The notes beneath the pieces are model-generated. The model was not told the origin of the DNA and ran no database searches. It was given only the letters and a program-made list of their open reading frames with translations. Below are positions 13,748-38,217 of a stretch of DNA of 38,272 bases, piece by piece. Location of the stretch: positions 1-38,272 of IMG/VR virus record IMGVR_UViG_3300031825_000047. One strand, given 5' to 3'. The position numbers and the translations under genes are program-made. The stretch is from a virus. Positions within the stretch are counted from its first letter, which is position 1. The number at the start of each line of letters is the position of its first letter.

Positions 13748-14467
13748 TTAGCTTAGTAATGAATACATCGTGTCTGCTGCTCGTTCACCAATAAGAACAT
13801 AGTTAGCAGTATTAAAATGCACATCTCCTGCATTAGCGTTAATGTCGTCAGTGTTGACTACAGCAACGTTATACATCGAGATTAAATCGAACTGCGCGCG
13901 CATATTAGTCCATCCTGCTAAAGCTTTGCCGTTCTCGTTGCCTGGTTTAATTAGTACCACAGGTAGGTTTAAATCTCTCAAATCCACCCTAAACCATGAA
14001 ATTAAATTAGTCAGTTGCTGACTGATTAAATCCGCGCTGGCAGTAGTAGAGCAGTCATTCTCACCCAACCAGATAACTAATCCCGTCAATTCCCCATTAT
14101 CTTTAGCCCAGTCTATGCGTTGGCAAGCCATTCCGTATAAACCTGAGTTACGATTCCACTTCACCCAATTACCTAAAATAGAACCTCCTAAACCCTTAGG
14201 AACAAGACCAATTTCATCATCAGGGAAATAGGAGGCCAACCTATTTGCATAAGCAAGTTGAAAAGCCCCTGCATTTGTGGAGTTAGCACCAGCAGGTTCA
14301 ATCACATCTATCGCTTGTTCCCATGTGCCTTGTGTATTTGGCACAAATGCACCTGTTGGTTCTGTATAAACAAATAATTGTGAAGCTTGAGTAAAGATTG
14401 GTAAGAGAGTTTTTAAACCACGGTCACAAGTGTTTGAGTGACCAACTACGGGAAAAAGTTTACGCAT
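13748..14467 (-). CDS. SGNH/SASA-type carbohydrate esterase
   Basis: 239 residues with the order of blocks of sialate-O-acetylesterase-like SGNH hydrolases: VVGHSNTCDRG (serine at residue 11), GGSILGNW (94-101), VIWLGENDC (132-139), and GDVHFN (Asp215, His217) near the C-terminus. The usual GQSN and WHQGEND motifs are here GHSN and WLGEND. Such enzymes remove O-acetyl groups from surface sugars. It lies 11 bases after the tail-fibre gene in the same direction, with no signal peptide, so it is probably a virion-associated esterase that strips acetyl groups from the host's O-antigen or capsule during adsorption. The enzyme class is well supported; the substrate is inferred. Confidence 0.8.
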   Translation of the reverse strand: MRKLFPVVGHSNTCDRGLKTLLPIFTQASQLFVYTEPTGAFVPNTQGTWEQAIDVIEPAGANSTNAGAFQLAYANRLASYFPDDEIGLVPKGLGGSILGNWVKWNRNSGLYGMACQRIDWAKDNGELTGLVIWLGENDCSTTASADLISQQLTNLISWFRVDLRDLNLPVVLIKPGNENGKALAGWTNMRAQFDLISMYNVAVVNTDDINANAGDVHFNTANYVLIGERAADTMYSLLS

Positions 14468-21460: not shown

Positions 21461-21849
21461 ATTACCCAAACTGCTCCGCCTTGTGCGGTAAGGTTAACCG
21501 TAACATATTGCGCTGAAATTACTTTTGTTGTTGCGCCATCTATCAACTCAGCACTATCCGCGTCTATCGTTACGGTATTGACCGAAGCATCTATCTTTTT
21601 AATCGTGAGTTTCTTTTGTTCCCATTGCAAAGCTGGTTGGAGGGTAATAGTCACATTGCCTGCTGTAGCATCTACTAGAATAATCGCATCATTGATGTTC
21701 ATGGTGTAATTACTGGTTACTCTTGTCACTGGGAATAAGTAACCGTCAGCAGCGCGATTTATTCTATTTTCTATAATAGATAAAACATTGTTATATGATT
21801 GTCGGTTGTAAGTATCGGTTGCATATTGGATGAGGGCTACTTTATCCAT
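21457..21849 (-). CDS. Small beta-rich structural protein
   Basis: 130 residues. An N-terminal helix (VALIQYATDTYNRQSYNNVL) is followed by beta strands with Thr/Val alternation (NDAIILVDATAGNVTITLQP, VTIDADSAELIDGATTKVIS). The DATAGNVTITLPA..TIKKIDASANTVTIDA pattern is that of small decoration or tail-accessory domains of phages. One-base overlap with the preceding gene (tail hub). Probably a virion decoration or tail protein. Confidence 0.65.
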   Translation of the reverse strand: MDKVALIQYATDTYNRQSYNNVLSIIENRINRAADGYLFPVTRVTSNYTMNINDAIILVDATAGNVTITLQPALQWEQKKLTIKKIDASVNTVTIDADSAELIDGATTKVISAQYVTVNLTAQGGAVWVI

Positions 21850-23318
21850 TATTCACTGCCATCTTGTAGGTAAGTCGCGTTCACTTCATTCAACACACAA
21901 TCGCCAGCCATATCAAACTGCAATCTATGCCATCTAGCAGAAATAAGATGGTCAAAGCGAGAATCTACCATTGTTGTAGTCGCGTCAGTGACTAAACTAT
22001 CCCCTTCACTAGCCTTATAGAAATTGGTCATAGTCGCACTGGTGGGTTTAGTCAACCATTTAGGTTTAACTCTTGACAATAAATAGTAGCTCTCATCATC
22101 CCCAAAATCGCCAGTGGTGAATTGCGAGTTAGCTGCAATTCCGTCTAAAGACAATAATTTATGTGAAGTGCTGAATATACCAGGCGTTAAGTTACCAGAA
22201 GTCCAAAATGGGGAATCCCATGATAATGTACTAGGAATAGTGTCCCATGTAGCATATGGGAAAGTATCCCATGTAATCGCGCCTGATAGATACTCTAACG
22301 CCGCCTCTATAGTCCTATCATCCCTGCCCCATTTATTGGTTCTGTAATGGTAAACTACGCATGAATCAATTGCACCTGCACCACCACGAGACGGATAATA
22401 AAAGTAAATCCTAGAGTTAATTCTGTCATGCAGGGTTTTAATCCTGTTGGCATAGGTTAAATCTAATTCACCATAAACTGTTTTTCTGACAGGCGCACCA
22501 ATCGGCACTGGTCTTGCCCCGTCAAACCGCCAGAAATCATCCGCGCCCATAAAAATATGCACTGGATTGTCAGGCGTTCCGATATTCACCACCGCCTCTT
22601 GTGAGCTACATCCAGCCTCGCCCACTACTTGCTGAAAGTTCCATATCTGCGGCGCACCTACATAAGTGCCGACATACATAGCACGCTCTTTATAAACTAC
22701 AATTTGGTCGCCAAAGCGCTTACCTGCGAAGATACGACCAGGTGCAGATACCAACAGTCCTGTCGTGCATTGCGTAGCAATAGAAGGTGTCCAGTCATCA
22801 TAGGTATTCTGTGCTGCACACCACCAGCGATTGGGGCTATCACCAAAGCTAGCTTCACTGGTATTAAACAGAAATACAAAGCCAGCTACCGTTTCCACAA
22901 TAGCCGCTTTAGGGGCTGTTACTGCGCCTTTTACCACGTCAGCAAAGGTGGTGGAACTTGAGAATTGCAACACATCTGATTTAGCCGTAGCTAGGGTAGT
23001 ATCGCCAAATTGCGCAAACCGCCAGAAATCATCCGCACCTAGGGCATAATCACCACCGCTAACCCTAGTTCTGTCTGTCCAAGTCGTACTGGTAAGTTCG
23101 TATAATTTAGTAGCACTACCTGCAATTAGTCGGAAAGAATTATCCAGCTTGCGAATTGCTGCCGCACCAAAACAGGTGGCGGCTAAAGCATCTAAACCAG
23201 TATCTTGTGCACTTGGGGCGGCTTGCATACCTTTCTCAGTAGGGATAAAGGCCGAACAGCTTGTAATCACTCCGTCTATGGTCTGGTCAACGTCAGGGGC
23301 ATAGCCTTGTAAAATCAT
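21849..23318 (-). CDS. Tail hub/nozzle beta-propeller protein (P22 gp10-like)
   Basis: 489 residues, Trp-rich and full of repeated beta-blade units: SGGDYALGADDFWRFAQFGD and the second copy FMGADDFWRFDGARPVPIGA, VYKERAMYVGTYVGAPQIWN, VVYHYRTNKWGRDD. A repetitive beta-propeller following the head-tail adaptor is the P22 gp10 / podovirus nozzle type. It would plug the portal and hold DNA in the packaged head before tail attachment. Stop of the adaptor gene overlaps its start (ATGA). The specific gp10 label is by architecture and position. Confidence 0.75.
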   Translation of the reverse strand: MILQGYAPDVDQTIDGVITSCSAFIPTEKGMQAAPSAQDTGLDALAATCFGAAAIRKLDNSFRLIAGSATKLYELTSTTWTDRTRVSGGDYALGADDFWRFAQFGDTTLATAKSDVLQFSSSTTFADVVKGAVTAPKAAIVETVAGFVFLFNTSEASFGDSPNRWWCAAQNTYDDWTPSIATQCTTGLLVSAPGRIFAGKRFGDQIVVYKERAMYVGTYVGAPQIWNFQQVVGEAGCSSQEAVVNIGTPDNPVHIFMGADDFWRFDGARPVPIGAPVRKTVYGELDLTYANRIKTLHDRINSRIYFYYPSRGGAGAIDSCVVYHYRTNKWGRDDRTIEAALEYLSGAITWDTFPYATWDTIPSTLSWDSPFWTSGNLTPGIFSTSHKLLSLDGIAANSQFTTGDFGDDESYYLLSRVKPKWLTKPTSATMTNFYKASEGDSLVTDATTTMVDSRFDHLISARWHRLQFDMAGDCVLNEVNATYLQDGSE

Positions 23319-23938
23319 GCTGCAATCACTCTCATGACTGAACCAGAGTATTTACCGCGCCTGTCAGAATCAAATAACTGTTGACCAATCAACATGGCTT
23401 TATTCAACCATTTTTGTGCTAATGCCTCGTTTTTAATTACGTCATAAGCCTCTGCTAACGATTCTGCTAGATAGAGGTCAGGATGAGCTGTTAAAAGCCA
23501 GTTTGTCGTATTAGATACGCTTAATGCAGGTATTTTCTGGTAATAGAGAATCTTTATATCGTTACTGGTAGTTTCCTCTGACAACAAGATACTTGCGCCT
23601 TCTATCGTGTAATAACGTGAAGGACTTACGCCGTCATTAGTTAATATTGGATACTTTAGATAGAAGTTCTCTGGTGTCAGATACTCAAGCTCCATCGGCG
23701 TATCGGTATCAATGTAAATCCTGCGTAATTCCAAATAGTCTGTCGGTAACGTGCATACACCAGCCGTAGGAGTTAAGCTAGTGGAGGTTTCCATGTTTCT
23801 AGTACGTAAGCCACGGTTAAATTTAGCCTCTGCCAATGTAATAAAATCAGGATAAAGTGCGATTAGATTAGTATCACCAGTACGACTTAGCCATTTTGTG
23901 ATGGATGTTTGAAGTTCGCTGTAATTAGTTATTGCCAT
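23315..23938 (-). CDS. Head-tail adaptor protein (gp4/SU10-like)
   Basis: 207 residues, with ITNYSELQTSITKWLSRTGD, then LYPDFITLAEAKFNRGLRTR and an LPTDYLELRRIYI block, and a helical end (LAESLAEAYDVIKNEALAQK). This is the adaptor family of podoviruses (P22 gp4-like, SU10 adaptor), which forms the ring between portal and nozzle. Its position after the sugar-enzyme cassette rather than directly after the capsid is unusual. ATGA overlap with the nozzle gene. Confidence 0.8.
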   Translation of the reverse strand: MAITNYSELQTSITKWLSRTGDTNLIALYPDFITLAEAKFNRGLRTRNMETSTSLTPTAGVCTLPTDYLELRRIYIDTDTPMELEYLTPENFYLKYPILTNDGVSPSRYYTIEGASILLSEETTSNDIKILYYQKIPALSVSNTTNWLLTAHPDLYLAESLAEAYDVIKNEALAQKWLNKAMLIGQQLFDSDRRGKYSGSVMRVIAA

Positions 23939-23949
23939 TTATTTTCCAA

Positions 23950-24645
23950 TCAAACATAAGATTCAAGCCCACGGCCTTTTAATGGGTAGATGGACTGAAA
24001 ATACTCTCCAAGCCATCTATTTGCTTGCCCTGATTCCTGATAACCAGAGAAACATGGAGTTCCAATGGTGTAATGAATAAGCTTTGCGTTTTCATTCACT
24101 TCATACTCACTATCTAGCCAGTTCCACTCAATAGGCAGTTCTCCTATTTGCTCATCAGTGAGCCATGTGAATCTATGCAACTGCGCACCTGTGGCGTTCT
24201 CGATAAAGGCAGGTGTTAATGCCCTATTGGCTTTATGTTCGCAATTCCACAGAATTACGCTCGACCAGTTTTTGCGCGGGTAATCTGAATTGTCGTTGCC
24301 TAGGTACTTTTTGCTGAACTTAGTCTTGTAATCGTGCTTAACTACCATCACCGCTTTTGATGGGTCTCTAATCTCCCATAACTTAGCTATATCATCATGG
24401 CAGGTCATATCACCGTCAGCAAAGATTGCCCACCCTTGATAACCTTGAAGATGAGGGACGAGAAATCGTGAATATATAAATGAATTGGAACCGTCTGTGT
24501 GCGCCTCTTTGTATATTTTATTCATGGCATTTAATACCAATGGCGCAAAACTAACTGGTGATGTTGCTCTACTTAGGACGCTTTGACAGAATGTATGATA
24601 GGCAATCGCCTCTCTATTATCGTACCCAACATACACAGGAATCAT
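23950..24645 (-). CDS. GT-A glycosyltransferase (GT8-like)
   Basis: 231 residues. Residues 1-100 give the nucleotide-sugar-binding fold with the metal-binding motif FADGDM (Asp77-Gly-Asp79); RFLVPHLQGYQGW precedes it as in GT8 and related enzymes, and LIHYTIGTPCF (about 189-199) matches the C-terminal HxxG metal-contact motif. It should transfer a sugar from a nucleotide donor. It lies in a cassette with five other sugar-related genes, with ATGA overlap to the gene before it. Substrate unknown. Confidence 0.8.
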   Translation of the reverse strand: MIPVYVGYDNREAIAYHTFCQSVLSRATSPVSFAPLVLNAMNKIYKEAHTDGSNSFIYSRFLVPHLQGYQGWAIFADGDMTCHDDIAKLWEIRDPSKAVMVVKHDYKTKFSKKYLGNDNSDYPRKNWSSVILWNCEHKANRALTPAFIENATGAQLHRFTWLTDEQIGELPIEWNWLDSEYEVNENAKLIHYTIGTPCFSGYQESGQANRWLGEYFQSIYPLKGRGLESYV

Positions 24646-25328
24646 AAATTATTCATTTCCTTTATTATATCCCACGCATAGCCACTTCTAAGCTCTTCTA
24701 GCGTAAATTGAGAGTAGGTGAGGGTATTCACCCACTTATTTCTATCAGGCCTCTGTGGAGCTTCTATGTCGTTTAATCCCACCCCAACATGGTAAGCTGG
24801 TGAAACTTCTGGACAGACTACAGGTACGCCATGACAGGCGGCCTCTACCGCTGCAACAGAACAATGCGATACCAGTGCAAAGCATTTCTTGATAGAGTCG
24901 CCAAGCCCTTTTGTTTTAATCTCTTTGACGTAGATGTCTCGGTCAGTTTTGCTCACCAATATGTCAATGGCATCATTGTTCCATGTCTCGTCTTTGTGGA
25001 ACGCCATCGGGTTCTTAGGTGAAGGGATAAATACTATCCTTCCATCTGTAAATTCCTGCCAATCCCGTAACTTGACACTGAATTTCTTGCGCCTATCATC
25101 GGGATAATCAAATACTTTTGTCTGATGTATCGTGTTATAAATAACCCTGAAATTTCCTAATTCATAACCTCTGTCAAAATAGGCATGGTCTATATATAAG
25201 AACGGTTCTCCTGTGTTTCTACATTGTTTAATATCGTCTAGGTCATCGTAGCCAAAGAAGCTCCTAATTGGTGATTTCAATTGCTTCCTAACGCCTTCAC
25301 GCTGTTCGCTTTTGGTTCTCTTTGTCAT
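24642..25328 (-). CDS. GT-B-like glycosyl/phosphosugar transferase
   Basis: 228 residues. The C-terminal segment LVSHCSVAAVEAACHGVPVV followed by CPEVSPAYHVG is the donor-binding pattern of capsule-type and KpsC/S-like transferases (SxSVAAxEAxxxGxPVxC). N-terminal FFGYDDLDDIKQCRNTGEPF and YIDHAYFDRGYE add a small Rossmann-like half. It probably works on the same glycan as the adjacent enzymes. Coupled to the genes on both sides by ATGA junctions. Confidence 0.65.
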   Translation of the reverse strand: MTKRTKSEQREGVRKQLKSPIRSFFGYDDLDDIKQCRNTGEPFLYIDHAYFDRGYELGNFRVIYNTIHQTKVFDYPDDRRKKFSVKLRDWQEFTDGRIVFIPSPKNPMAFHKDETWNNDAIDILVSKTDRDIYVKEIKTKGLGDSIKKCFALVSHCSVAAVEAACHGVPVVCPEVSPAYHVGVGLNDIEAPQRPDRNKWVNTLTYSQFTLEELRSGYAWDIIKEMNNL

Positions 25329-25933
25329 ACCAACTTTGATTTTGACGAGAACTTATGGTGTGTCACATAACGGCTATTTTTCAAGCCGAATTCTTTATAA
25401 TCAAGGAACTCAACTTGCAGTCCTTTATATTCTATCCGTCCTATTTTTGGATTCCCCATATTGGCATACACGGTATTAAACGCTTTTGAATCACCATGCC
25501 AATCCTTCGCTCCATCGAATACTTGGAGAATCTCATTAAAGATTGGCAATGCTGATTTTCTGGCAATTCTGAATGATGGTGTCATGTGGACTTCATCATC
25601 ACGGTACAACATAATTAAATCTGCTTTTGGTATATCGAACATCTTTATTATTCTTGCATCAGGTTCAGTGAACCAATAAATATCATCATCAGCTTGTTCA
25701 AGGAACTTACAGAAACATACTTCACGGTTGTAAACAATGTTGTTCTTGTTCAAGCCATCGTAATAGATATTTTCATCACCCCAGCCTTCATGACCAGATA
25801 GCGTTAGATGAATTACTTTAACGTTATGTTGATGGGCGTTCTCTACGAATCCTGCAAATAAATTCTTATATAAGTCTTTCGGCGCATCCCATAGCGGATT
25901 TGCATCAGCGTGGTATATAACCGCTTTCATCAA
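25325..25933 (-). CDS. Putative GT-A-like nucleotide-sugar transferase
   Basis: 202 residues. MMKAVIYHADANPLWDAPKD, then NVKVIHLTLSGHEGWGDENI and an acidic DDDIYWFTEPDARIIKMFD motif (metal-site-like, position about 82-100) suggest a small GT-A-fold enzyme, perhaps recognising activated sugars. RIARKSALPIFNEILQVFDG continues the fold. The match is by fold style and context only; I cannot name a family. It is coupled to both neighbours and belongs to the glycan cassette. Confidence 0.55.
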   Translation of the reverse strand: MMKAVIYHADANPLWDAPKDLYKNLFAGFVENAHQHNVKVIHLTLSGHEGWGDENIYYDGLNKNNIVYNREVCFCKFLEQADDDIYWFTEPDARIIKMFDIPKADLIMLYRDDEVHMTPSFRIARKSALPIFNEILQVFDGAKDWHGDSKAFNTVYANMGNPKIGRIEYKGLQVEFLDYKEFGLKNSRYVTHHKFSSKSKLV

Positions 25934-26556
25934 TCCCAGCTCAGTATAAAGTCGCCAGAAATCTCTTTCCTTAGTTTTGCGCCTAATGACTGTAAATAAC
26001 TAACGGCTTGCGTCTCCTCTAGTCCGAACTTCTGCGCCCTGCCTGGTTTTTGTTCAACGATTACACATGGCTTACAACGCTTCAACATTTCCTCGCCACC
26101 TTTAAGCGCGAAATACTCGTAACCTTCACAGTCAAGCTTAATGAAATCAGGGTTAAGATTGAAAGTATCTAGTAGCTTTACTGGAATATCGCCTTTGCCT
26201 TCCACCCATGAGTCGCCAGAAGAACCTTGTGAGGTATGGATGTTAATCATGTCTTCTTTTTCACCTAAAGCGCACGGATGCAAGGTGTAGTTGCCTTTTA
26301 CGTTTAATGCATAACACTCTCTGTGTTCTTGTACTGGCTCAAAGGCTACGACTTCATCAAAAAGTGTTGTGAGTTCTTTTGACCACAAACCACAATGCCC
26401 ACCAACATCAATAGCTAGCTTAACTCCTTTAACATACTTATATGCCTCTATTAGCTTGTTGGCTTGATAAGTCCACTTTCCGTGGTCGCCCTGCTTTGCG
26501 TAATGTTCTAAGTGTGTTTCGTGGTTCGGCAACCAGATTCCGTTGACTTCTTTCAT
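25930..26556 (-). CDS. FkbM-family SAM-dependent methyltransferase
   Basis: 208 residues. The SAM-binding motif I AIDVGGHCGLWSKE (48-61) and post-motif VVAFEPVQEHRECYALNV, and the conserved FIKLDCEGYEYFALKGGEE (DxExxE type), identify the FkbM / Methyltransf_21 family, which typically O-methylates sugars or small molecules. MKEVNGIWLPNHETHLEHYA is an N-terminus recurrent in phage FkbM proteins. It overlaps the end of the GT9-like gene by 119 bases in another frame. In this cassette it could cap a phage or host glycan. Confidence 0.85.
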   Translation of the reverse strand: MKEVNGIWLPNHETHLEHYAKQGDHGKWTYQANKLIEAYKYVKGVKLAIDVGGHCGLWSKELTTLFDEVVAFEPVQEHRECYALNVKGNYTLHPCALGEKEDMINIHTSQGSSGDSWVEGKGDIPVKLLDTFNLNPDFIKLDCEGYEYFALKGGEEMLKRCKPCVIVEQKPGRAQKFGLEETQAVSYLQSLGAKLRKEISGDFILSWD

Positions 26557-27247
26557 AGGCCTCTAATACTTCCTCTACGGTTATTTTATTCATGGCTTTA
26601 CGGCAATGCTCACACTCTTTGGCATAACTGCCGCATGGCTCATCACCATGCCAGATATTAATATGTGATTCATAACCTAGATTTTCTGGACTGGCCACAC
26701 CACCCCACAACACGATTGCAGGTATTCCTAACGCTGCTGCTGCATGATGTAATGCGCCATCTGTAGTAATCAGCAATTTAGCCCCTGCAAGCACGTTCAA
26801 CGCATCATCAAAGGTTGGCGTTACTATGGCATGGCTTTTGTCTAAAAAGTCCTTTGTGCCCATCTGCCGCCATTCTGGAAGATGTTTAACAAGCTCTATC
26901 CAATTATCTTTAGACCATTGTTTGTTTCTTCCTAACTTAAACTCACTTTTTACATTAGGCTCTATCAGGATAAACCCATTATCCTTTTGTGGATTCGATG
27001 GGTACAGCTCACCTGGCTTAACTCTAAAGTCATTATTAAACTCGAAATTGTCTTTATGAATACGTTTTATATAAGGCCTGTTTCCAGGATAGTTGGCTAT
27101 CCATGCAAACCTCTCACCTTTTTCTAGTTTATTGGCAATTTTTGGGTTTCTGTCAAAAACCTCTGAATAGAATTTTCTATCCCCATCACCAAACACCACC
27201 CTTACCCCGTGGCGCTCATTTACCTCTTTGGCATCTGCGGTCGCCAT
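26438..27247 (-). CDS. GT9/heptosyltransferase-like glycosyltransferase
   Basis: 269 residues. The C-terminal donor-binding half contains LLITTDGALHHAAAALGIPA followed by IVLWGGVASPENLGY, the hallmark of GT9 (heptosyltransferase-like) enzymes; N-terminal FAWIANYPGNRPYI is a reduced acceptor half. Four Cys (CGSYAKECEHC) lie near the end. A typical GT9 would stop at about residue 235 (TVEEVLEAYER); here a further 35 residues (after Glu-Ala-Tyr-Glu-Arg) are read over the start of the FkbM gene, giving the long overlap. Probably a shifted or extended stop. It has the usual good ribosome-binding context at 27247. Confidence 0.75.
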   Translation of the reverse strand: MATADAKEVNERHGVRVVFGDGDRKFYSEVFDRNPKIANKLEKGERFAWIANYPGNRPYIKRIHKDNFEFNNDFRVKPGELYPSNPQKDNGFILIEPNVKSEFKLGRNKQWSKDNWIELVKHLPEWRQMGTKDFLDKSHAIVTPTFDDALNVLAGAKLLITTDGALHHAAAALGIPAIVLWGGVASPENLGYESHINIWHGDEPCGSYAKECEHCRKAMNKITVEEVLEAYERSQRNLVAEPRNTLRTLRKAGRPRKVDLSSQQANRGI

Positions 27248-27258
27248 AATCCAATCAC

Positions 27259-28617
27259 CTAAACCGATTTTAGCTCTCCAATCATGGTTTCAACTTCTTC
27301 TGCGATTAACTTAACAGGGGTATCCCATGTTTTTGTCCGCCTAAACAACTCGATAGAATTGCCCCACATGAATCTAGGTGTAGCATACCGCCAGTGCGGT
27401 TTATTAGGGACTAACACCTTACATCTTTTCCCAAGACCTGCACATAGATGCACCACCGCCGTCTGAACGCTAATAACTAGGTCTAATTCAGATACTAATG
27501 CAGCAGTGTCATCATAGTCATTGGTCTGTGTAGCCCACGGGAAATGATGAATCGTAATCCCATGCTTACTTGTGAATTCAGCTATCTCTGCGCTTGGGTC
27601 TTTGTACTGAATACTGATAAATGTCGCATCTTTTTTTAAGATGGGAAGCAATTGTTCTAAATCTAAACTTCTACGTTCGCCGTGAGTGTCTTTAAGGCCT
27701 CCAGTCCACGCTATGCCAATTTTAGGCTTATCGCTTAACTGGCTTAATAATGCTTTCCACTGTGTTTTTCTTTGTGGGTCGGCTATCAGATAAGGCTTGC
27801 CATCGAAATCACCGTCTTTTGTTCTATAGTGCCATCCCAATGAACCAGATAAGCACCATGCTTGCACATAATCGCTTAATGCGGCGTTTTTATCGAATCT
27901 TGTACCTTGTACCTTAGCTTTAGGAAAAGAACGCTTAAAAAGCCCTTCCAATCGTTTGTCACACTCCAAAACAACCTCAGATTTAACGCTATTTAGCATA
28001 GACGCGAAACTAATCTCATCCCCTATGCCCTGCTCACCTCTAATGTGTAACTTCTCTACTTTCTCGCCAGTCCAATACGGTACATCTTGTCTAGGTTCTG
28101 CTGTGCGCTGCTTGCTATTACCAACCATCGCCTCATAACCATCCCAGCCCTCAGCCCAGTTACCTAGCATCAGATTGGCGTAGCCTCTGGTTTCGTGTAC
28201 ATCCCATTGTTCAGGCTCTATTTTTAGAGACTTCTCTACATATTCCAGTGCTTTATTCGGGTTGCACTCATTCACTTCAATTAACGCTAGGTTATTCATT
28301 GAAGGATAGTTTTTGTGGTTAATCTGCAATGCTCGATTAAAGTTCTTTCTAGCTTCGTCTATCAAGCCTATTTTCATACAACACATCCCTAAGTTATTCC
28401 ACACTTGGTCACGCTTAGGCACTAATACTGAGGCTTGTTTGAGAAGGTTGTAAGCCATCCCATAACGTTCTGCTTGTAAGAACACATACGAAGCAATAAA
28501 TAACGCTCTGGCTTCGTTCGGATTCTCGTTTAATATATTTGAGGCTATCCTGAGTGATTCATCAGGTTCACCATCTTCCGCTAACTGTAAAGCTAACGTT
28601 ATCTGGTCATCAATCAA
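27259..28617 (-). CDS. TPR protein fused to GT9/OGT-like glycosyltransferase domain
   Basis: 452 residues. Residues 1-165 are tetratricopeptide repeats (DEARKNFNRALQINHKNYPS, NNLALIEVNECNPNKALEYV; canonical Ala/Gly/Tyr positions). From about 188 comes a GT-B-type domain: KLHIRGEQGIGDEISFASML, KIGIAWTGGLKDTHGERRSL, and LVISVQTAVVHLCAGLGKRC. This TPR plus GT arrangement is common in bacteria and resembles protein O-glycosyltransferases (OGT/GT41 style), in which the TPR part binds the protein acceptor. Hence the virion itself may be a substrate. The start overlaps the stop of the preceding structural gene by four bases. Confidence 0.75.
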   Translation of the reverse strand: MIDDQITLALQLAEDGEPDESLRIASNILNENPNEARALFIASYVFLQAERYGMAYNLLKQASVLVPKRDQVWNNLGMCCMKIGLIDEARKNFNRALQINHKNYPSMNNLALIEVNECNPNKALEYVEKSLKIEPEQWDVHETRGYANLMLGNWAEGWDGYEAMVGNSKQRTAEPRQDVPYWTGEKVEKLHIRGEQGIGDEISFASMLNSVKSEVVLECDKRLEGLFKRSFPKAKVQGTRFDKNAALSDYVQAWCLSGSLGWHYRTKDGDFDGKPYLIADPQRKTQWKALLSQLSDKPKIGIAWTGGLKDTHGERRSLDLEQLLPILKKDATFISIQYKDPSAEIAEFTSKHGITIHHFPWATQTNDYDDTAALVSELDLVISVQTAVVHLCAGLGKRCKVLVPNKPHWRYATPRFMWGNSIELFRRTKTWDTPVKLIAEEVETMIGELKSV

Positions 28618-28946
28618 CGATGCACCAGTGTTGTAGTCTTGAGATAAGAGTATTCAGGTTTATTCACCATTTTAATAAGTTCTTTGCGGTCTTTAATATC
28701 AACGCCTTGAGAGAACCACTCCATCAACACGCCACTAGGAATGTGGGCATAATGTAGCATCTCATTCTTCATGCCTTTTTTGCTGTAGTCTTCATCGTTC
28801 TTGAGTTCTTTGGTCGCTTCCAGTTCTCGATTTAACTGAAAGTCTGTCTGTCTTGTTTCAATGTGTGATTCATCGGTTAATTCATCGTAATGATGAAAGG
28901 TCATCAACCCTGTGAATTCGTCATATCCTAATAGTCTTTTTTGCAT
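28614..28946 (-). CDS. Conserved phage head-region protein
   Basis: 110 residues from ATG 28946, chosen because the region upstream lies in the hairpin after the capsid gene and the conserved part begins with MQKRLLGYDEFTGLMTFHHY. Pattern: GYDExTGxxxxxHYDE, then YAHIPSGVLMEWFSQGVDIK and VNKPEYSYLKTTTLVHR. Proteins with an AHIPxxVxxxWxxxGxDxxD..ELxxMxNxPExxYLKTT end follow the capsid gene in several podoviruses and may complete the head. No own ribosome-binding site is visible outside the hairpin. Confidence 0.65.
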   Translation of the reverse strand: MQKRLLGYDEFTGLMTFHHYDELTDESHIETRQTDFQLNRELEATKELKNDEDYSKKGMKNEMLHYAHIPSGVLMEWFSQGVDIKDRKELIKMVNKPEYSYLKTTTLVHR

Positions 28947-28977: not shown

Positions 28978-30000
28978 TTACAACGCTGGGTTGATGTCCG
29001 ACACTTTGCCGCTAGCCTTCTCGTTATTAGAAACAAGTGTCAATTCAGTAAGAATCTGTTTCTTGTTGCTATCACCAGTTTTCGCTAGGTCGAAAGATTG
29101 GAAGCCACGCAATGATGCTACTGTCCAGTAATCCATATCCAATACTAGGATGTTCTGGTCACGCATAAAGCGGTTAGGCACAATCTCATGCTCACCAAAG
29201 TCAGAGACATACAAGTCAACGCCTGACACGATGGTCGCTTGTTGACCGCCTGGCACTTCACGGTAACGTGTCGCCACGCCATTGAATGAACCAGAGATTT
29301 TTGACTTGGTAGCTGGGCCAACCATTAACACACCAGGGTCGCCGCCTTGTGTCCAGCAAGCCTGAATAACTGTTTTTAATGCAGCCTCTGTGGCTGTACC
29401 TGCTACGGTTGAATCGGTAGGTGATGCCACTGTACCGCCTGAATAACCAGGAGTAGTTTGTGCTGTACCTGTACCAACTGATGTTTTGTTAGTTGCTAAC
29501 CATGACTCAACAGAGGCCAATGTCGCACCGCCACCTGCTGCACCTGATGTAGAAGCTTGGTTACGCACTAGAGCAAACTCTACGTCACGTTTTAATTCGC
29601 GTGAGCGTTTAGTCATCTGATAAGCTAACTCAGAAGCACGACCCGCTTTATCTACCGCATCCTGTGTACCTGAAACAGAAACTGTTTTAGTCAGGATTTG
29701 GCAGTAGTTACGTAAACGTACTGTAGGAACTGCTGTATTTATTACGGCATCGTTACCTTGAATCGCAGCGTTGGTTGCTGCTGAATCTAACGCATCAGTT
29801 TGCCATTCGTGGAATGTAGCAGTTGCTTTGCCTTTCTTGGCCTTCATGTAGAAAGGTGTTTCTAGTGGTGAAATATCAGAGATAATGTCTGATAAATCTT
29901 CGCGGTTACCTACCGCTTGGAAAGTTTGAAAAGTACCAGATGGCACAGCCATCATGATAAATAAATCTAGCATTGCTAGAGGATTTAAGAATTTTAACAT
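28978..30000 (-). CDS. Major capsid protein (SU10/DUF5309 type)
   Basis: 340 residues. MAVPSGTFQTFQAVGNREDL and SDIISDISPLETPFYMKAKK are the conserved N-terminus of the SU10-type major head protein (DUF5309), HK97-fold. YWTVASLRGFQSFDLAKTGD and SNKKQILTELTLVSNNEKAS are the conserved C-terminal part. Sixteen residues (MLKFLNPLAMLDLFIM) stand before the usual start; they are kept because AAGGAAA lies seven bases before their ATG and there is no site before the inner ATG. A GNRA-type hairpin precedes the ribosome-binding site and a strong hairpin follows the stop, as expected for the most expressed gene. Confidence 0.9.
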   Translation of the reverse strand: MLKFLNPLAMLDLFIMMAVPSGTFQTFQAVGNREDLSDIISDISPLETPFYMKAKKGKATATFHEWQTDALDSAATNAAIQGNDAVINTAVPTVRLRNYCQILTKTVSVSGTQDAVDKAGRASELAYQMTKRSRELKRDVEFALVRNQASTSGAAGGGATLASVESWLATNKTSVGTGTAQTTPGYSGGTVASPTDSTVAGTATEAALKTVIQACWTQGGDPGVLMVGPATKSKISGSFNGVATRYREVPGGQQATIVSGVDLYVSDFGEHEIVPNRFMRDQNILVLDMDYWTVASLRGFQSFDLAKTGDSNKKQILTELTLVSNNEKASGKVSDINPAL

Positions 30001-37409: not shown

Positions 37410-37564
37410 CAATCAACCTTTGCTGGCTCATCATCTGCCACTTCGTAATCAGGACAATCAATGTCTTTCTTGCTAGTCTTGGTTAATGGATGGCGTGGAT
37501 GAAAGCAAAGCAATACCGTACGCACAGTCTCATCAGAGTATTTGCATTGAGAACAATTAGCCAT
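37406..37564 (-). CDS. Small Cys-containing protein of the nin-like region
   Basis: 52 residues from ATG 37564, which overlaps the stop of the phosphatase gene (ATGA). It has C4-x2-C7 (MANCSQCKYS), Cys20-x-His22 and Cys37 in an otherwise acidic C-terminal tail (PDYEVADDEPAKVDW); together Cys and His could hold one zinc. Its TGA overlaps the GTG of the Ref-like gene. NinF/NinE-type small proteins occupy similar places in lambda relatives, but the match is only positional. Confidence 0.6.
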   Translation of the reverse strand: MANCSQCKYSDETVRTVLLCFHPRHPLTKTSKKDIDCPDYEVADDEPAKVDW

Positions 37565-38217
37565 CACAATTTCACCATTGTTAAAGCTCTGCCAAATACC
37601 GCGCCAGTATCTATGTACAGAACATTGCCAAGTTGCATGGGCTTTTCTAATGGCGTATGACCTACAATAAGCACGTCAATGCCCTCAACTTCTGAATCAT
37701 CGTTATACTGGATTTTAGTTCTTGACCATATTGCAATCTCTTTATAATTTTCTGACTTAGATGTTTTCATTGCTTCTTTAAATCCAACCCATGAGCCTGA
37801 TGGGCATTCAGCATGAATAATACCAATTTTTTGAGTTTCAGTTTTTACTTCTATTGCTAGCGGTAGCATTCTAAATTCATTTGCTATTTCCTCTTGCCTA
37901 TCTTTTGGCAATTCAATAAACCACGAACCTCCATTTGATTCGTACCATTCTCTAGGAGCTTCTCCATCAACATAACTAATTGCCATTTGCTCATGATTGC
38001 CTAACACGGAATGAAAGAATGACTTGGCAAGCCAATTCATAGCTTCAATTGATTCTGCACCTCTATCCACCAAGTCACCAACGCTGAATAATCTATCTTT
38101 TGATTCATCAAAGCCAATTTCTATTAGTTTTTCTTCTAACATTGTGAAACATCCATGTATATCACCTACAGCGTAATCATTACCAATTTTGTTAATATTA
38201 AACTTTTTAATTTTCAT
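37564..38217 (-). CDS. Serine/threonine-type metallophosphatase (lambda NinI-like)
   Basis: 217 residues with the full metallophosphatase signature: GDIHG (18-22, AVGDIHGCF), GDLVDRG (47-53), GNHEQ (73-77), then histidines IIHAECP and VGHTPLEK. This order defines the PPP-family phage phosphatases typified by lambda NinI (orf221), placed, as here, in the nin region before Q. It dephosphorylates proteins in vitro in lambda; its role in infection is unknown. AAGGAAAGATA stands before the ATG at 38217. If the genome is circular, the gene follows the PP-loop gene directly. Confidence 0.9.
   Translation of the reverse strand: MKIKKFNINKIGNDYAVGDIHGCFTMLEEKLIEIGFDESKDRLFSVGDLVDRGAESIEAMNWLAKSFFHSVLGNHEQMAISYVDGEAPREWYESNGGSWFIELPKDRQEEIANEFRMLPLAIEVKTETQKIGIIHAECPSGSWVGFKEAMKTSKSENYKEIAIWSRTKIQYNDDSEVEGIDVLIVGHTPLEKPMQLGNVLYIDTGAVFGRALTMVKL

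Follow-up and report, generated by a model that had tools for sequence, protein, structure and literature searches.

The DNA analysed here, referred to as the window, comprises 38,272 bp of viral origin (IMGVR_UViG_3300031825_000047, positions 1–38,272), in which a cassette of six genes, most of them predicted to transfer or methylate sugars, lies between the capsid and head-tail adaptor genes. The cassette is part of a virion module on the minus strand that comprises terminase, SU10-type portal, scaffold, SU10-type major capsid protein (MCP), a small gene designated orf140, the six cassette genes, SU10-type adaptor, and nozzle. Pfam matches of the portal (PF23899), the MCP (PF17236), and the adaptor (PF24175) identify the virus as an SU10-like podovirus. 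No near-identical phage DNA was present among GenBank phages. The genes at the locus are as follows.

28978..30000, minus strand: MCP, SU10_MCP family (PF17236, E 5e-91)
28614..28946, minus strand: orf140 (phrog_3982), 110 aa from a likely ATG at 28946; left cassette border
27259..28617, minus strand: tetratricopeptide repeat (TPR)-glycosyltransferase (TPR-GT), first cassette gene, TPR solenoid plus GT-B domain; predicted virion-protein O-glycosyltransferase
26438..27247, minus strand: GT9/heptosyltransferase-like enzyme (PF01075, 30.9 bits)
25930..26556, minus strand: FkbM-family methyltransferase with S-adenosylmethionine motif DVGGHCG (PF05050, E 4e-13; TIGR01444, E 6e-18)
25325..25933, minus strand: orphan protein, weakly similar to nucleotide-sugar transferases (PF03407, below cut-off); start perhaps the ATG at 25930
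24642..25328, minus strand: small GT-B-fold enzyme of 228 aa (GTB); nearest solved folds the beta-Kdo transferases KpsC and WbbB
23950..24645, minus strand: GT8-family glycosyltransferase with DGD motif (PF01501, E 1e-8)
23315..23938, minus strand: SU10-type head-tail adaptor (PF24175, E 4e-31); right cassette border
21849..23318, minus strand: nozzle/virion structural protein (phrog_3287); conserved flank

An initial annotation of this DNA had described six overlapping or adjacent genes between a head-region protein and the adaptor, and this layout was confirmed. The six open reading frames (23950–28617) form one compact operon with intergenic distances of +11, −119, −4, −4, −4, and +11 bp, the last being the distance to the adaptor gene, and TPR-GT in turn overlaps orf140 by 4 bp. 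Judging from gene orientation only, the cassette is presumably expressed late. The frame overlap of 119 bp between the GT9 and FkbM genes (26438–26556) has a similar length in two related contigs (L084, L088). A terminator-like hairpin (AAGGGGGAGTAATCCCCCTT, 28972–28953) followed by a T-rich stretch is located between the MCP gene and orf140 and might cause the cassette to be expressed at a lower level than MCP.

The TPRs of the first gene product passed the Pfam cut-off (54.5 bits, cut-off 27). The protein consists of a TPR solenoid (residues 2–162) and a GT-B domain (residues ~189–450); its structure was predicted with a pLDDT of 91.6 and a pTM of 0.87, and the best matches of the model in the PDB, as determined by Foldseek, were SPINDLY and human OGT (probability 1.00). 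The motifs GEQG-GD, K-G-AW-GG, and LD-V--V-T are invariant or nearly so. None of the six cassette proteins showed a transmembrane segment in hydropathy analysis. TPR-GT is thus a single soluble protein with a TPR domain at the N-terminus and a GT-B domain at the C-terminus, an arrangement shared with FlmG, the cytoplasmic flagellin O-glycosyltransferase of Caulobacter crescentus. FlmG binds flagellin through its TPR domain and requires this domain as well as the GT domain for glycosylation (PMC7591256). Domain layout and modelled fold indicate that TPR-GT is likely a protein glycosyltransferase, predicted to be O-linking and virion-directed.

The GT8 (35.4 bits, cut-off 24.3), FkbM (50.2 bits, cut-off 22.7), and GT9 (30.9 bits, cut-off 22) proteins also passed Pfam; the FkbM methyltransferase is predicted to carry out sugar O-methylation. 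Structure prediction covered two cassette proteins, TPR-GT and GTB. For the latter, a GT-B-like model (pLDDT 91.4) was obtained with KpsC and WbbB as its nearest folds (Foldseek probability 0.77–1.00, E 2e-3 to 4e-2, TM 0.38–0.49). However, GTB is much smaller than these enzymes, and its identity to them is only ~10–13% at a best E of ~2e-3. It had no match in Pfam, including the capsule-synthesis families, and no sequence match to the KpsC/WbbB type. The protein encoded at 25325–25933 reached only a sub-threshold Pfam match to PF03407 (E 0.011, 16.2 bits, cut-off 22), and searches of phage and viral collections and of the PDB, like a comparison with the GT-A profile A4, retrieved no relatives. 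Thus, the enzyme identities proposed by the initial annotation held for GT8, FkbM, GT9, and TPR by Pfam cut-offs and for both GT-B folds by structure prediction and Foldseek, while the GT-A-like identity of 25325–25933 was not confirmed. The 'complete pathway' of that annotation was not supported: the cassette encodes only transferases and a methyltransferase, and no sugar-nucleotide synthesis genes were recognised, so that donors would have to come from the host.

By profile scan, at least ~600 viral stretches were found to encode TPR-GT relatives, which does not support the notion that such a cassette is unusual in a 38-kb genome. The best-scoring 78 newly fetched contigs among these were surveyed. 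MCP was located just upstream of TPR-GT in all 65 contigs with enough upstream DNA, and the adaptor was found downstream in 38 of the 40 loci with >5 kb of downstream DNA; TPR-GT and adaptor were −61 to 4758 bp apart, the median being 1396 bp. A search of related phages for the cassette, as proposed in the initial annotation, yielded a fixed site that is either occupied or empty. In 27 SU10-like loci, with or without cassette, the orf140 homologues formed a single cluster, and orf140 is the constant gene between MCP and adaptor irrespective of TPR-GT. The shortest layout is MCP-orf140-adaptor, with ~340–390 bp separating MCP from adaptor; where a cassette is present, it occupies the interval between orf140 and adaptor. 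In the first survey, TPR-GT was the first cassette gene in every cassette-bearing locus. Among close relatives, it is followed by GT8, FkbM, a methyltransferase-like protein, and a GT-A-like protein containing an LDTD motif in L004 and L089, by only the latter two in L003 and L006, and by GT9, FkbM, and GTB in L084 and L088, where GT8 is relocated upstream of the portal. In the more distant relative L030, nothing follows TPR-GT within the cassette. Across the 78 viral loci, GT8 occurred in 39, FkbM in 12, GTB in 12, and GT9 in 7. TPR-GT is therefore constant, and the genes after it (GT8, FkbM, GT9, KpsC-like GT-B, and others) turn over. Cassette genes displayed dN/dS (nonsynonymous to synonymous substitution) ratios of 0.00–0.12 in close pairs of relatives, indicating purifying selection. 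This selection, together with a position that stays the same across dozens of contigs, argues against the cassette being a chance arrangement. Three carriers of TPR-GT have another capsid family, Phage_capsid_3 (L162, L226, and L360), and orf140 is absent or unrecognised in them; in L162 (GenBank MW202512.1), TPR-GT is annotated only as 'tetratricopeptide repeat'.

We calculated three MCP trees from which a loop, described below as the MCP loop, was left out. In two of them, a single branch separated TPR-GT carriers from non-carriers (8 versus 18, SH-aLRT 96; 52 versus 10 dereplicated rows, SH-aLRT 89), and carriers as one clade were not rejected in the third (approximately unbiased test, p 0.43). 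The trees are consistent with TPR-GT having been gained once, together with this capsid lineage, and never lost among the sampled sequences. The MCP loop (residues 172–203) is Ser/Thr-rich (KTSVGTGTAQTTPGYSGGTVASPTDSTVAGTA) and is a candidate acceptor. In carriers, it has more Ser/Thr and less charge (raw Mann-Whitney p 2e-5 and 4e-6), and TTPG occurs in 30 of 52 carriers versus 0 of 10 non-carriers. The loop of the L167 MCP is 75% identical to that of the window MCP, compared to 48% for the rest of the protein. As carriers form essentially one clade, the loop is a lead, not proof; with only one or two independent phylogenetic contrasts, we dropped it as proof of the acceptor.

Relatives of TPR-GT were also surveyed in 78 loci (1.26 Mb) from bacterial genome assemblies. 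Three of these (L167, L184, and L226) turned out to be phage regions; L167 and L184, at first taken for bacterial TPR-GT loci, are located inside contigs of metagenome-assembled genomes. A PilA-type pilin was found near TPR-GT in 16 of the 78 loci, 14 of them within 1 kb (median 272 bp), and a flagellin in 14 others, with no overlap between the two sets. A homologue of the window GT8 was present in 24 loci, in 23 of them within 1 kb, making GT8 a recurrent partner of TPR-GT in phages and bacteria. It often accompanies TPR-GT in the pilin-adjacent loci (L171, L173, L170, L201, L241, and 11 more). Genome-wide densities per Mb are ~0.5 for pilins and ~0.6 for flagellins (24-genome samples); thus, less than one of each is expected in 1.26 Mb. 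A random-placement test supported the proximity of pilin and GT8. The pilin beside TPR-GT was checked by Pfam in one locus. Among the sampled genomes, four (those of L170, L171, L173, and L201) had only one Pfam pilin match, and each of these carries a pilin next to a TPR-GT. These gene neighbourhoods suggest a cytoplasmic TPR-type pilin glycosylation system, a class of which we found no description in the literature. If so, TPR-GTs adjoining pilin genes, e.g. the one next to the only PF00114 pilin gene of Methylococcus capsulatus, would be predicted to glycosylate type IV pilin in the cytoplasm. Slightly short of an even chance, in our view, is the broader notion that TPR-GT, in many cases paired with GT8, serves in the cytoplasm as a general glycosylation head for surface proteins that self-assemble, used by bacteria on flagellin or type IV pilin and fixed behind the capsid gene in a large phage lineage, where an exchangeable glycan cassette would give rise to variable sugar coats.

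Taken together, the six genes probably serve to glycosylate the virion, as a module whose position behind the capsid gene is fixed. As to acceptor, linkage, order of steps, sugars, and benefit, we infer the following. The TPR domain would bind a freshly made virion subunit, most likely MCP and perhaps at the Ser/Thr-rich loop, and the GT-B domain of the same protein would attach a first sugar to Ser/Thr, as FlmG does on flagellin. GT8, GT9, and the KpsC-like GT-B would extend this sugar using host nucleotide sugars, and FkbM would methylate the glycan, extension and methylation taking place before or during head assembly. TPR-GT would be kept as the match to the virion while the downstream enzymes are swapped between phages, and due to this exchange related phages would carry different glycans. 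That the virion rather than DNA is the target, one of two options in the initial annotation beside the host surface, is supported by the likeness to protein glycosyltransferases, the MCP gene upstream, and the pilin and flagellin neighbours in bacteria.

Several observations weigh against this interpretation. The likeness of TPR-GT to OGT and SPINDLY is at the level of fold only, no GT41 match being obtained in Pfam at E<=1, and global TM-scores are low (0.33–0.43 by query length). Within the bacterial loci, flagellin was not significantly nearer to TPR-GT than under random placement (8 versus a mean of 5.8 at 1 kb), and for flagellin the genome-wide density was used in place of random placement. 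The survey of best-scoring relatives is biased toward this lineage, and the difference in the MCP loop represents one phylogenetic contrast and hence is not independent evidence. GT8, GT9, and KpsC-like enzymes elsewhere mostly act on lipopolysaccharide or capsule. In pelagimyophages, glycosyltransferase genes, mainly GT8, have been interpreted as modifying the O-chain (PMC7029224).

The latter two points favour an alternative in which the enzymes remodel host surface polysaccharide late in infection and block re-adsorption of progeny or superinfection: the folds of GT9 (heptosyltransferase-like), GT8, and the KpsC-like enzyme are those typically seen in lipopolysaccharide or capsule enzymes, a surface role has been assigned to phage GT8 genes (PMC7029224), and a SASA-type carbohydrate esterase gene (13748–14467) points to sugar-related tail biology. 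However, the gene that stays constant encodes a protein glycosyltransferase of the TPR type and is tied to its position behind MCP, its relatives in bacteria are neighbours of pilin and flagellin genes, and no Gtr-type membrane flippase or lipid-linked enzyme occurs among the six. We therefore regard host-surface remodelling as improbable for the cassette as a whole; it is disfavoured for TPR-GT and possible for the downstream genes. Even less probable is a cargo hotspot, i.e. a region that tolerates insertions of functionally unrelated hitchhiking genes. SU10-like contigs do carry other cargo between MCP and orf140, namely a KptA/Tpt1-like RNA 2'-phosphotransferase domain (L096) and an M23 peptidase (L097), but the recognised neighbours of TPR-GT are mainly glycosyltransferases and methyltransferases, with GT8 in half of the viral loci (39/78), and purifying selection on the genes is strong. 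Hardly any weight is given to modification of phage DNA by glycosylation or otherwise as a defence against restriction. Phage glycosyltransferases can act in this way in general (PMC7029224), but here the enzymes are encoded in the virion operon and not among replication genes, TPR-GT resembles protein-directed enzymes, and no base-hypermodification gene was recognised among the scanned proteins, early genes included, some small ORFs being unscanned.

Virion glycosylation could also have another acceptor than MCP, such as orf140, the adaptor, the nozzle, or a tail fibre. The orf140 gene is the only one separating MCP from TPR-GT and shares 4 bp with the latter, and TPR-GT relatives occur near tail-fibre genes in the cyanophages BUCT-ZZ01 and S-SRM01. 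Yet orf140 occurs with and without TPR-GT and is absent or unrecognised in the Phage_capsid_3 carriers, and MCP, like pilin and flagellin, is an abundant polymer. We consider a non-MCP acceptor rather unlikely, though clearly less so than the alternatives above.

Phage virion glycosylation as such is already known; new are the enzyme type, the fixed locus, and the swappable cassette. We found no paper in the open-access literature on a TPR-type phage enzyme or a capsid-linked cassette. Some bacterial relatives of TPR-GT adjoin flagellin genes, which resembles FlmG, but the phage gene itself is situated behind a capsid gene, and no pseudaminic acid genes were found with it. OGT and plant SPINDLY (GT41) share the TPR superhelix and GT-B fold; TPR-GT differs by far fewer repeats and another domain arrangement. 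The membrane flippase and lipid-linked sugar transferase of Gtr-type O-antigen conversion systems have no counterpart in the cassette, whose six products showed no transmembrane segment. To our knowledge, the virion glycosyltransferases of mycobacteriophages are not TPR-fused and have no fixed locus between MCP and adaptor. They are phage-encoded enzymes decorating capsid or tail, as proposed for the present phage, and include Che8 gp110 and Corndog gp38 (Freeman et al. 2023, as cited in PMC12363180 and PMC10877033). No mycobacteriophage was among the TPR-GT tblastn matches in the phage collection, the Che8 gp110 and Corndog gp38 sequences not having been compared. Glycoproteins have also been detected in phage XacN1 (PMC5852040). 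In the sugar clusters of Pelagibacter phage Mosig and Caulobacter phage CcrPW, GTB, GT8, and FkbM occur together as in the present cassette, GTB relatives adjoining GT8 in both. In CcrPW (L165, 6001–8796), homologues of GTB, GT8, FkbM, and GT9 are consecutive, mostly annotated as hypothetical, and located downstream of a tail-protein gene, possibly representing a tail glycosylation cluster in jumbo phages. In contrast to the window, no TPR-GT was found in the stretches examined of either phage, and the site is not that between MCP and adaptor.

If the proposed virion glycosylation is correct, environmental podoviruses of a widespread group build capsids from glycoproteins whose sugars are specific to the phage and rapidly exchanged. 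This would alter the view of virion surfaces and particle stability and provide a source of compact soluble protein glycosyltransferases. Elsewhere in the window, the SASA-type carbohydrate esterase mentioned above is predicted at the distal end of the late genes and is possibly a tail-associated deacetylase, and a NinI-like serine-threonine phosphatase (phrog_246, E 7e-75) is encoded at the window end (37564–38217).

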